Source of the DNA: Rhodospirillaceae bacterium bin65
Lineage (GTDB): Bacteria; Pseudomonadota; Alphaproteobacteria; Bin65
DNA length: 64,000 nucleotides
Assembly: GCA_002238725.1 (NCBI GenBank)
Contig: MPMX01000020.1
Coordinates: forward strand, 1 to 64,000
Reading direction: 5' to 3'
The stretch's first letter is position 1. Each line of letters begins with the position of its first letter. Made by a program: the position numbers and the translations under genes. This document shows, in pieces, positions 24,116-28,150 of the stretch. The notes beneath the pieces are model-generated. The model ran no database searches and was not told where the DNA came from. It saw only the letters and a list, made by a program, of their open reading frames with translations.

Positions 24116-25141
24116 CTACTCCGGTTTCCGGCCAAGAAGGAAATACATCGGGCTGAAAATGCCCAGCCGGCCGGCCTCGGCAAAGGCTTCGCCGGCGACG
24201 TTCAGGAACGCTGCGACCTGCGCCGTGCCGCGCGGCACGATGCGCAGCCGTTCGAGCAGCCAAAGCGAACCGCGGGTCAGCCGGCGGCCCACGGGCGAAC
24301 TGCGGGCGCTGGCGAATGACAGGCCGGAACCGACCAGCGGCTGGTACCAGGGGATGCCGGGCGGCGCGTCGGCCGCCAGGTCGCGCGCGTCCAGCAGGTC
24401 GAAACCGACCCGGCGCATCGCGTCGTCCATCTCGTGCGGCCGGGCGATGTCGGGCAGGCCGCCGCCATACTCCATATCGGCCTTGAGCTTCAGGTGCAGG
24501 GGATCCTGCGCATCGAAAAGGTCTGTCAGGCAGAAATCGTAGGCGCCGAAACGGCCGCCGGGCTTGAGGAGGCGGAACGCCTCGCCGAAGACGCCGGCCT
24601 TGTCGGGCGCGCAGCAGGTCGCCTCGATGGCGTAAACCGCGTCGAAGGTGTTGTCCGGCGCGTCGACATTCATGAAATCGCATTTGAGATATTCGACCCG
24701 ATGGCTCAGATATTCCGCCTCGGTCAGTTTTGCGGCGCGCTTCAACTGATACTCGTTGTTGTTGACGCCGAGGATTCTGGCGCCGGAAAAGCGCGCGATC
24801 TCGCGTAACGAACCGCCGATCCCGCAGCCCAGGTCGACCGCCGTCATGCCGGGTTGCAGGTCGAGGCGGTGCGCCAGGTAATGCTCGTGCCGCGCCAGAG
24901 AAGCGGCAAAGCTTTCCCCTTCGATACGCGGCGCAAAGTGGAACGACCGGCCCCAGCCGTATTCGTAGAAGTCGGTCACCAGGTCGTAATAGGTATTCTC
25001 GAAATCCTTGTAGTCGGACTTGCGCTCGTCCCGGCCGCCGCGCGCCGCGCCGCCGTAGCGCCGGTCGTAGTCTTCGGCGCGGGAGGCGACACCGTCACCG
25101 GATTTTGCGTCTTTCAGAATGTCGGTGAGTTTGACAGCCAT
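24116..25141 (-). CDS. Sterol C-24 methyltransferase (SMT/ERG6) homologue
   Basis: Predicted to transfer methyl from SAM to C-24 of a sterol side chain. All four regions regarded as diagnostic of eukaryotic SMTs are visible in the 341-residue protein: region I YEYGWGRSFHFAPR (59-72) followed by GESFAASLARHEHYLA, SAM site VDLGCGIGGSLREIARF (102-118) with NNNEYQLKRA, region III YAIEATCCAPD (170-180; usually ATCHAPD, so His is Cys here), and region IV GAYDFCLTDLFD (199-210). A C-terminal domain continues (PWYQPLVGSGLSF). Length is close to plant and fungal SMTs (~340-380). No obvious signal peptide. Divergent from a Rieske oxygenase gene. Other C-methyltransferases of this superfamily (tocopherol, squalene) lack region I in this form, so the SMT assignment is fairly strong; activity is untested. 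Confidence 0.85.
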   Translation of the reverse strand: MAVKLTDILKDAKSGDGVASRAEDYDRRYGGAARGGRDERKSDYKDFENTYYDLVTDFYEYGWGRSFHFAPRIEGESFAASLARHEHYLAHRLDLQPGMTAVDLGCGIGGSLREIARFSGARILGVNNNEYQLKRAAKLTEAEYLSHRVEYLKCDFMNVDAPDNTFDAVYAIEATCCAPDKAGVFGEAFRLLKPGGRFGAYDFCLTDLFDAQDPLHLKLKADMEYGGGLPDIARPHEMDDAMRRVGFDLLDARDLAADAPPGIPWYQPLVGSGLSFASARSSPVGRRLTRGSLWLLERLRIVPRGTAQVAAFLNVAGEAFAEAGRLGIFSPMYFLLGRKPE

Positions 25142-25403: not shown

Positions 25404-26462
25404 ATGGCCTATCTCGACGACAGCGCCTGGCGCTATTTCTGGCATCCGGTCTGCACCCTGTCGGAGCTTGCCGCCGCCAGCGCCGACAAGCGGGCACTCC
25501 CGGTCACGCTGCTCGGCGAGCCGATCGCAGTCGCCGAGATATTCGGCACCGTGGCGGCCTTTCCCGACCGGTGCATCCATCGCTCGACGCGGCTGACGGT
25601 CGGCTGCGTCGAGGCGGGCGGACTGCGCTGCGCCTATCACGGCTGGCTCTACGATGCCGGCGGCGCGTGCGTCGAAATTCCCTCGATGCCGAATTATCGC
25701 ATTCCGCCCGGCTTCCGGCTTCGGAAGATCGAGACCGCCGTCGCCTACGACCTGGTCTGGCTGCGCCTCGATCCGGAGGCCGGCACCGACATTCCCGGGT
25801 GCCCGGCCTGGGGCGACGAGGCGTTCCGCTGCGTCGAGGGCGAGCCCTATACCTGGCCGACATCGGCCGGGCGCCGGCTGGAAAATTTCGTTGACCTGTC
25901 GCATTTCCCCTTCGTCCATGACGGCTCGCTCGGCGACCGCCGGCACACGACGGTTCCGATCGCGGATATCGCCCGCGTCGGTGGCGAGCTCCGGTTCCGC
26001 TTCGAACCGGAGCCGGACATGGACCTGCCCGACGTCGCCCTGATGGCGCCGACCGACTACCGGATCTGGATGCCGTTCACGGTCAATCTCGAATTCTTCT
26101 TTCCGGACGGCGAGCGTGGCCAGCTCTGGATGACCGCCTCGCCGGTCGAATCCGGAACCTGCCGCAGTTTCTGGTTTACCTGCCGCACTGCCGACCGGGA
26201 CGGCGACGACCGACCCCATCTCGACTTCCAGGATCTGGTCCTCGCCGAGGATCTTCCGGTGATTGCGGCCCAGGATCCGCCTGAGATCCCGGGTCCGGCC
26301 GGGGAGCAATCCGTGCCGGTCGACGCCGTCTCGCTGGCCTATCGCCGGTGGCTGCGCGAACTCTCCGCAGCCGCACAGAAAGGGGCCGGGGCCGTCGCCC
26401 GCGGCCTCGCTTCCGAAAAACGCTCGGGAAAGCAGGGGTCAGGCGCCGCGCGCAGCGCCTGA
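25404..26462 (+). CDS. Rieske [2Fe-2S] non-haem iron oxygenase
   Basis: A 352-residue oxygenase alpha subunit. The Rieske cluster is bound by Cys57-x-His59 (DRCIHRST) and Cys76-x2-His79 (CAYHGW); the mononuclear iron site is NFVDLSHFPFVHDG (Asn161/Asp164, His167, His172). The overall arrangement resembles vanillate O-demethylase and phthalate oxygenase-type enzymes. It uses an electron-transfer partner that is not encoded nearby. Start ATG 25404 has GTGGAG upstream; an open frame to 25221 is non-homologous. Being divergent from a sterol methyltransferase homologue, it might act on a sterol, since Rieske enzymes carry out C-4 demethylation and C-7 desaturation of sterols; this is inference. 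The last ~35 residues are basic and low-complexity. Confidence 0.88.
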   Translation: MAYLDDSAWRYFWHPVCTLSELAAASADKRALPVTLLGEPIAVAEIFGTVAAFPDRCIHRSTRLTVGCVEAGGLRCAYHGWLYDAGGACVEIPSMPNYRIPPGFRLRKIETAVAYDLVWLRLDPEAGTDIPGCPAWGDEAFRCVEGEPYTWPTSAGRRLENFVDLSHFPFVHDGSLGDRRHTTVPIADIARVGGELRFRFEPEPDMDLPDVALMAPTDYRIWMPFTVNLEFFFPDGERGQLWMTASPVESGTCRSFWFTCRTADRDGDDRPHLDFQDLVLAEDLPVIAAQDPPEIPGPAGEQSVPVDAVSLAYRRWLRELSAAAQKGAGAVARGLASEKRSGKQGSGAARSA

Positions 26463-26511
26463 CCCCGGGGCGCTTCAGGGCGCTTCGGGGCGGCCCGGCC
26501 GGTCCGGCCCG

Positions 26512-27870
26512 TCAGCCCCCGATTTCCTCGGGCAGCACGGCGTTCAGAATCGCCGCCGTGACACCCGAAACCACGATGCCCGAGACGAACAGCGGCAACG
26601 ACCAGGCCGGCAGGACATCGGCCGGCAGCGGTCCGAAGCCGGCGGCGCCGGCAAGCTGCTGGACCTGCCACAGCCCCATGCCGAGGCCGAGGGAGATCGC
26701 CGCGATCAGCATGTTGCGGGTCGAAAGTCCGTCCCGCGCCACCAGCTTGAGGCCGGCGGCGACGATCAGGCCGAACATGATCACCGCAGCGCCGCCGAGC
26801 ACCGGCTCGGGCATCGCGCCGATGACGGCGGCCAGTTTCGGGATGAAGCCGCAGAGGATCAGGAAGACTGCGCCCACCGTCACCACATGCCGGCTCATCA
26901 CCCGGGTGAAGGAGACCAGGCCGACATTCTGGCTGTAGGACGTGTTGGGCAGACCGCCGAAGAGCGCGACGATCGCCGAGCCGAGGCCGTCTGCCATGAT
27001 GCCGCCCTTGAGCTCCTTGTCGGTCGGCTCGCGATCCGCGCCGCCAACCGTCACGCCGGAGATGTCGCCGACCGTCTCGACCGTGGTGATGAACGCCATG
27101 ATGACCATGAGGCCGATCAGCCCGAGCGCAGTCGGCGTAGAGAATTCGAGGCCGAACCACTGGTCGGGCAGGCCGATCCAGTCAGCCTTGGCAATGCCCT
27201 CGACCTTCCGCGGGTTCATCATCCCGAACGGGATCGCCACCAGGTAGCCGATCACGATTCCGATGAAGACCGACGCGGTCGACCAGATTCCCTTGCCGTA
27301 TCTGCGGATCGCGAGAATGGCGAGGATGACGAACAGAGCCATCGCCCAGTTGCCGACGTCGCCGAAGCCGGCTTTCTTGCAAAAGCCGGCGGGGTATGCG
27401 CCGCAGCCGGCGGAGTACTTGATGCCGACCGGCAGCAGGGTGAATCCGATCGTCATGACCACGACGCCGGAAACGAGGCCCGGGATGAACTTGCGGACCT
27501 GCGGAATGAAATATCCGAGAAGAATCTGGAAGAGCCCACCGACGAGGCTGGCGCCGAAGACGGCGGCGAGGCTCGCACCGCCCTTGATCGCCGCGGTCAG
27601 TATGCCGACGTAGGCAAAGCTGGTTCCCTGGACGATCGGAAGACGGGACCCTACGGGCCCGATGCCGATCGTCTGGATCAGCGTTGCGACGCCGGCCGCC
27701 AGCAGGGCGATCTGCACAAGTACGGTGATGTACTGCGGCCCCGCGGCCAGGGCGATCAGCAGCGGCACCGTGATGTTGCCCGCAAACATGGCGAGGACAT
27801 GCTGGATGCCGAGAGGAACGGCCTCGCGCATCGGCGGCCGGTAATCGGGATTTTTGAGTTGTTCATCCAT
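26512..27870 (-). CDS. NCS2 family nucleobase permease (xanthine/uric acid/uracil)
   Basis: A 452-residue proton- or sodium-coupled inner-membrane importer with about 14 hydrophobic segments. Visible are GIQHVLAMFAGNITVPLLIA, the substrate-site motif VQGTSFAYVG, FITTVETVGDISG (conserved Glu) and the NAT signature QNVGLVSFTR. The purine group (xanthine or urate) is favoured by the NAT signature, but uracil cannot be excluded. The start ATG 27870 (MDEQLKNPDYRPP) is chosen over a frame reaching 28068 that lacks membrane-protein character. It converges with the Rieske gene, and 280 bp separate it from the divergent ATP-grasp gene. Confidence 0.9.
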   Translation of the reverse strand: MDEQLKNPDYRPPMREAVPLGIQHVLAMFAGNITVPLLIALAAGPQYITVLVQIALLAAGVATLIQTIGIGPVGSRLPIVQGTSFAYVGILTAAIKGGASLAAVFGASLVGGLFQILLGYFIPQVRKFIPGLVSGVVVMTIGFTLLPVGIKYSAGCGAYPAGFCKKAGFGDVGNWAMALFVILAILAIRRYGKGIWSTASVFIGIVIGYLVAIPFGMMNPRKVEGIAKADWIGLPDQWFGLEFSTPTALGLIGLMVIMAFITTVETVGDISGVTVGGADREPTDKELKGGIMADGLGSAIVALFGGLPNTSYSQNVGLVSFTRVMSRHVVTVGAVFLILCGFIPKLAAVIGAMPEPVLGGAAVIMFGLIVAAGLKLVARDGLSTRNMLIAAISLGLGMGLWQVQQLAGAAGFGPLPADVLPAWSLPLFVSGIVVSGVTAAILNAVLPEEIGG

Positions 27871-28150
27871 GACCAGCGTTCCGTGGACTGAGTGACGGGA
27901 GGCGCCGGAACATGTCCGAAGCGCCAGCTGTTGACACCGAACTGGGCCAAGCCTGCCATCGTCGCATGGCCGGCGGCGGCGAAGCAAGATACCGGCCCGA
28001 GCCGTTTCTTCACTATTCCGACAGAGACCGGCGGCGGGGCCGATGGAAAAATCCTGCTTGCCCAACATCGAAGGGCCGACTTACGCTGTCGGCCTCTGAG
28101 CGGCGGGCCTTGCGCGACAGGGCAAATCAGCAACGGACGAGGTGAAGCCG

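Follow-up and report, generated by a model that had tools for sequence, protein, structure and literature searches.

The window, by which we mean the whole 64,000-nt stretch of DNA analysed here, carries on its minus strand at 24116–25141 an open reading frame of 341 aa with an ATG start and no internal stops, assigned as a sterol methyltransferase (SMT) by its Sterol_MT_C and Methyltransf_11 domains, its dN/dS and its position in the tree. The C-terminal Sterol_MT_C domain (residues 277–341; 24119–24313, minus strand) matched the full Pfam profile PF08498 (positions 2–66 of 66) at 73.3 bits and an E-value of 1.7e-20, the cut-off being 21.7, and the class I SAM methyltransferase domain with its Region II motif matched Methyltransf_11 (PF08241) at 67.7 bits. 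The UbiE and CMAS profiles scored 35.7 and 45.5, and every NCBIfam equivalog, whether UbiE, CMAS or another methyltransferase, stayed far below its cut-off (top score 49.8 vs 155). Compared by BLASTP with reference sequences that are not database records, the protein showed 47.8% identity to Arabidopsis SMT1 over 324 aa (E 2e-114) and 40.8% to yeast ERG6 over 338 aa (E 3e-96); identity to Arabidopsis SMT2, likewise not a database record, is 34.3% across almost the full length. Judged by its sequence, the open reading frame is a genuine full-length SMT homologue, and the original prediction of such a homologue in an alphaproteobacterium is borne out by the Sterol_MT_C score and the homology to SMT1 and ERG6. 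A sequence search of solved structures found no SMT structure, the nearest sequences belonging to natural-product methyltransferases, MitM and RebM among them. The AlphaFold2 model (mean pLDDT 81, with poor values below 50 at Region I residues 60–67) has a predicted fold closest to TleD and other class I methyltransferases; also among the matches are geranyl diphosphate C-methyltransferases, enzymes that add methyl groups to prenyl double bonds.

The motifs YEYGWGRSFHF, GESFAASLARHEHYLA, VDLGCGIGG, YAIEATCCAP and YDFCLTDLFD (residues 201–210) were all found in the order in which they had been predicted, and were compared in an alignment of 75 rows comprising the window SMT, 71 other bacterial SMTs and three eukaryotic ones. 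Region I, the side-chain/cation-pi region YEYGWGRSFHFAPR (residues 59–72; 24926–24967, minus strand, as are the following regions), was compared position by position with ERG6 81–94; its YEYGWGRSFHF stretch (residues 59–69) corresponds to ERG6 81–91, and YEYGWG is identical to ERG6 81–86. The GESFAASLARHEHYLA motif (residues 75–90; 24872–24919) aligned with ERG6 GESFAASIARHEHYLA, while Region II, the SAM-binding VDLGCGIGG (residues 102–110; 24812–24838), lies in the Methyltransf_11 match and includes the invariant G105, C106, G107 and G110. The alignment further located Region III, YAIEATCCAP (residues 170–179; 24605–24634), and Region IV, AYDFCLTDLFD (residues 200–210; 24512–24544). The SAM motif, E195 and the C-terminal GIFSPMYFLLGRKP are also kept, and all family-invariant residues are retained. 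The predicted replacement of the Region III His (ERG6 His199) by Cys was confirmed at residue 177; however, this position is His in 42 and Cys in 33 of the 75 SMTs, so that Cys177 is a feature common within the clade rather than an oddity, and its reading as a mark of lost function could be ruled out. The protein thus shares full-length homology, Regions I–IV and the Sterol_MT_C domain with yeast ERG6 and plant SMT1, but differs from them in its bacterial clade, in the Region III Cys for His and in an Asp for ERG6 E224 in Region IV (a change seen in 13/75 SMTs), and its N-terminus is shorter than that of ERG6. Nematode 4-SMT lacks the Region I aromatics Y81EYGWG86, which in C-24 methylation stabilise the cation (PMC6997595; PMC5711494); with YEYGWG intact, the window SMT would by this literature criterion resemble a C-24 enzyme.

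When 84,980 species genomes were scanned with the window SMT, 54 loci were found at 41–76% identity. From their bin names and source studies, we take most of them to be from sponge microbiomes (Aplysina, Ircinia, Rhopaloeides and Coscinoderma), and a minority presumably from non-sponge sources, namely groundwater Deltaproteobacteria, a Spirochaetes bin and Myxococcales. In the tree, the window SMT fell inside a bacterial SMT clade of 39 rows (support 100/100) that mixes Nitrospinota, Nitrospirota, Binatota, Chloroflexota, Actinomycetota, Gemmatimonadota and Alphaproteobacteria and consists largely, to judge by bin names, of sponge-symbiont MAGs, with weakly supported branching in its immediate group. 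The bacterial clade joins ERG6/SMT1 apart from two other methyltransferases of the same genome, with a separating support of 91/91, just below the tool's star. The protein therefore groups with SMTs, and a placement among ubiquinone, tocopherol or phospholipid methyltransferases was not seen. The gene is not markedly eukaryote-like, as the original prediction had stressed: the closest kin of the window SMT are in other bacteria.

The distribution of identities does not follow the organisms. LepA, whose gene also lies in the window, is 95–96% identical within the genus and 56–61% identical to the Nitrospinota, Binatota and Nitrospirota genomes, whereas the window SMT is 72–75% identical to the window-type SMTs of the congeners G030 and G031 and 75–76% identical to individual members of these phyla (another Nitrospirota genome, G005, gives 67%). 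Identity at fourfold-degenerate sites of LepA is 84% to G030 and G031 vs 31% to the Nitrospinota genome G002, while that of the SMT is 67–68% vs 67%. Both measures indicate that the SMT departs from organismal descent, and vertical descent within the genus is ruled out by the LepA comparison; as read from these sequences, the gene has moved between bacterial phyla by horizontal transfer. Synteny with the window extends in G031 from the SMT over the divergent Rieske gene and the permease through LepA, so that the SMT contig is no binning error. The G031 SMT at that locus, cut by a contig end, is about 72% identical to the window SMT while most neighbours are 83–96% identical; a small tree was unsupported at its placement, and it may be either the ortholog or a replacement. 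This low identity and the isolated position of the gene are what a decaying or non-functional import might show, but we regard such decay as extremely improbable, given the intact full-length frame, an NG86 dN/dS of 0.20–0.30 against six relatives, which indicates constraint by purifying selection, and a native base composition (GC3 0.82 vs 0.83–0.86 in the neighbours).

None of the immediate neighbours of the window SMT is sterol-related. The divergent neighbour (25404–26462, plus strand, with an inferred start) encodes a Rieske oxygenase resembling the methylxanthine N-demethylase NdmA (258 bits to 6icp), and beyond it lies a xanthine/uracil permease (26512–28068, minus strand; PF00860, 283 bits), a probable partner to this NdmA-like gene that is syntenic in G031. 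The top NCBIfam hit of the Rieske protein, the sterol C-4 demethylase SdmA (NF052579), reached 49.7 bits vs a cut-off of 600, and this assignment is rejected on that score, on NdmA being nearest and on the adjoining permease; the last two suggest purine metabolism. The stretch 25404–28068 could be a candidate pair for methylpurine uptake and N-demethylation, 86–95% conserved in G031. Rfam, promoter and terminator scans of the SMT locus gave nothing informative. Near the window edge, 447–2597 encodes a large serine recombinase with Resolvase, Recombinase and Zn-ribbon domains.

The absence of a sterol cyclase, originally remarked for the window, holds for the entire genome, a 4.29-Mb MAG (G000) that is 96.3% complete. 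Neither squalene epoxidase (SE) nor squalene/oxidosqualene cyclase (OSC) was found in it with models that match all four cluster-bearing congeners, and no ERG4/ERG24 reductase was found with PF01222, a model silent in control genomes that nevertheless matches the ERG24 of relatives. An SMT is encoded in 7/7 genomes of the genus and in 0/4 family members of other genera. The window SMT is no member of a sterol-synthesis cluster with ERG24-CYP51-ERG7 beside it. Four congeners (G028, G030, G031 and G032) encode an OSC-like cyclase of about 190 bits, which we tentatively set apart by score from squalene-hopene cyclases (>430 bits), together with an SE match of 76–90 bits, whereas G000, G027 and G029 lack the cyclase and have SE hits of at most 26 bits. 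In both G028 and G030, rplI is followed by a cluster of SdmB, Rieske, ERG24, CYP51, SE-OSC and SMT, arranged as Kelly et al. report (PMC9531527). In G000, the fabG-fabD-rpsF-rpsR-rplI side is syntenic and is followed by an unrelated gene on an unbroken 123-kb contig, so that the absence of the cluster is real at this site.

That the organism synthesises sterols through a cluster merely missing from the MAG is suggested by its 96% completeness and by the SdmB-Rieske-ERG24-CYP51-(SE-OSC) clusters of the four congeners, mostly with an adjoining SMT. We consider this quite unlikely, as the orthologous rplI site is assembled without the cluster, SE, OSC and ERG24 are all missing, G027 and G029 likewise lack OSC, and the 26-bit SE hits are weak and of the same kind as second hits elsewhere. 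An SMT without a cyclase also appears to be common, since 20/33 SMT-bearing genomes examined lack the OSC-like cyclase, a count inflated by MAG incompleteness. The original prediction had left open whether the substrate sterols were made or taken from a host; acquisition is favoured over synthesis because SE, OSC and ERG24 are absent. In the cluster of G030, L084:11073-15824 (G030:C40) encodes SE (FAD_binding_3/SE) and OSC (SQHop_cyclase N and C) in one frame, an apparent SE-OSC fusion that also occurs in the sponge-symbiont sterol clusters of G028:C88, G031:C96, G032:C11, G005:C98 and G014:C23; no report of a bacterial SE-OSC fusion was found in the open-licence literature, which is weak evidence. 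Beside the same cluster lie three tandem SMT genes (L084:16237-19576, G030:C40); two are window-type, and the third comes from another SMT clade.

A second SMT locus lies on contig C50 of the genome. Its SMT paralogue (L058:9778-10815), 38% identical to the window SMT with 56 bits to Sterol_MT_C, has lost Y81 and E82 in a Region I that reads MIFGWG, a loss shared by its relatives in L093 and L002, and its methylation site has possibly changed. It resembles nematode 4-SMT in this respect alone, whereas the window SMT, unlike 4-SMT, keeps the Region I aromatics. The nematode enzyme is also an example of an SMT homologue acting on imported sterol, and it shows a family able to change its site (PMC6997595). 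Together with the paralogue and the lack of flanking sterol genes, this could suggest that the window SMT has been repurposed for another position, such as C-4 of the sterol nucleus, or for another lipid, such as a non-sterol polyprenoid. Such repurposing seems unlikely to us, because YEYGWG and all the family-invariant residues are kept and because the genome lacks a squalene-hopene cyclase, which makes hopanoids an unlikely substrate.

The paralogue adjoins a Rieske oxygenase with a KshA_C domain, whose nearest solved proteins are 3-ketosteroid 9-alpha-hydroxylases. This neighbour might point to an SMT serving the degradation of host sterols rather than the making of alkylated membrane sterols, a role that we hold to be very unlikely, as the addition of a C-24 branch gives no aid to side-chain breakdown. 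The locus further encodes a fusion of GPP34 (Golgi phosphoprotein 3) and cytochrome P450 (L058:7721-9748, 675 aa), with a weak best solved match to Methylococcus CYP51, and an MMPL transporter with similarity to HpnN and to sterol-sensing domains; it is shared in part by the congeners G027 and G029. The GPP34-P450 fusion, found at full length across many phyla, occurs in 27/33 SMT genomes (a few have split pieces only) and in 0/4 SMT-less family members, an association with a p of 0.003 that is only indicative owing to genome relatedness, and no description of it was found in the open-licence literature, which counts as weak evidence. Methylococcus BstA, an HpnN-like MMPL/RND protein, uses its periplasmic domain to bind sterols (PMC10942540), making a sterol role plausible for the C50 transporter by analogy. 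The genome G110 belongs to another family; there, a window-type SMT (72%) is located among a KshA-type Rieske protein, an MMPL transporter (79%) and a LolA-like protein, an arrangement that ties the window SMT to the C50 locus. The SMT paralogue, KshA-type Rieske, GPP34-P450 and MMPL/HpnN-like transporter plausibly belong to the same sterol-remodelling capacity as the window SMT. Elsewhere in the genome, L059 (C24:33000-47000) encodes another MMPL transporter, whose hit to the sterol-sensing domain is clear (45 bits), adjoining a FAD_binding_4 oxidoreductase and two methyltransferases that are related to the SMTs but fall outside them.

Brown et al. (2023) described bacterial SMTs with C-24 activity in vitro, among them an active enzyme from a Chlamydiae MAG that has no further sterol genes, for which the authors raised action on host-acquired sterols, while some homologues were inactive on the two sterols tried (PMC10070321). 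Those enzymes, from sponge-symbiont metagenomes and other uncultured bacteria, are like the window SMT bacterial SMT homologues, but they were assayed in vitro (PMC10070321), whereas the window SMT is described here by its sequence and is compared with them through their published description. Kelly et al. (2022), studying Ircinia symbionts, found SMT1/ERG6 enriched in sponge MAGs and reported steroid gene clusters (CSGs) in Alphaproteobacteria and ten other classes, proposing horizontal transfer (PMC9531527). The window SMT, by contrast, lies outside any CSG, in a genome without a CSG altogether. With bacterial C-24-active SMTs (PMC10070321) and sponge-symbiont SMT1/ERG6 (PMC9531527) already in print, the window SMT belongs to a known kind, and the novelty implied by the original prediction does not stand. 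The present analysis adds three points: the lack of sterol-synthesis genes in this genome, a transfer across phyla, and a link to what may be a sterol-remodelling module.

Taken together, we consider it probable that the window SMT is a C-24 SMT acting on acquired sterols, its gene having been transferred horizontally among symbionts; the MAG's completeness of 96%, the silence of PF01222 in control genomes (though it matches the ERG24 of relatives), the purine-like appearance of the neighbouring Rieske/permease pair and the inactivity of some homologues assayed by Brown et al. count against this reading. The enzyme would methylate a sterol side chain at its delta-24 double bond, taking the methyl group from SAM, and the Region I aromatics would stabilise the cation that results. 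As the genome lacks sterol-ring enzymes, the substrate, for example desmosterol or 24-methylenecholesterol, would most likely be acquired externally, supplied by an animal host, which is probably a sponge, or by other symbionts; both the product and the direction of transport are inferred. The gene would have come into the lineage by transfer among symbionts of different phyla, and the second SMT locus may serve the same sterol remodelling. More broadly, and tentatively, many sponge symbionts of about ten phyla could possess a transferable module for remodelling host sterols, comprising one or more SMTs, GPP34-P450, KshA-type Rieske, MMPL/HpnN-like and LolA-like proteins, and distinct from the synthesis clusters.

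C-24 alkylated steranes serve as eukaryote biomarkers, and 24-isopropylcholestane as a sponge biomarker. If bacteria that do not synthesise sterols carry alkylation as a mobile gene, searches for bacterial OSC would miss them, and symbionts could partly set the sterol profiles of their hosts. Should the module exist as proposed, its carriers would be a source, so far overlooked, of sponge sterols alkylated in the side chain, without any sterol synthesis of their own.
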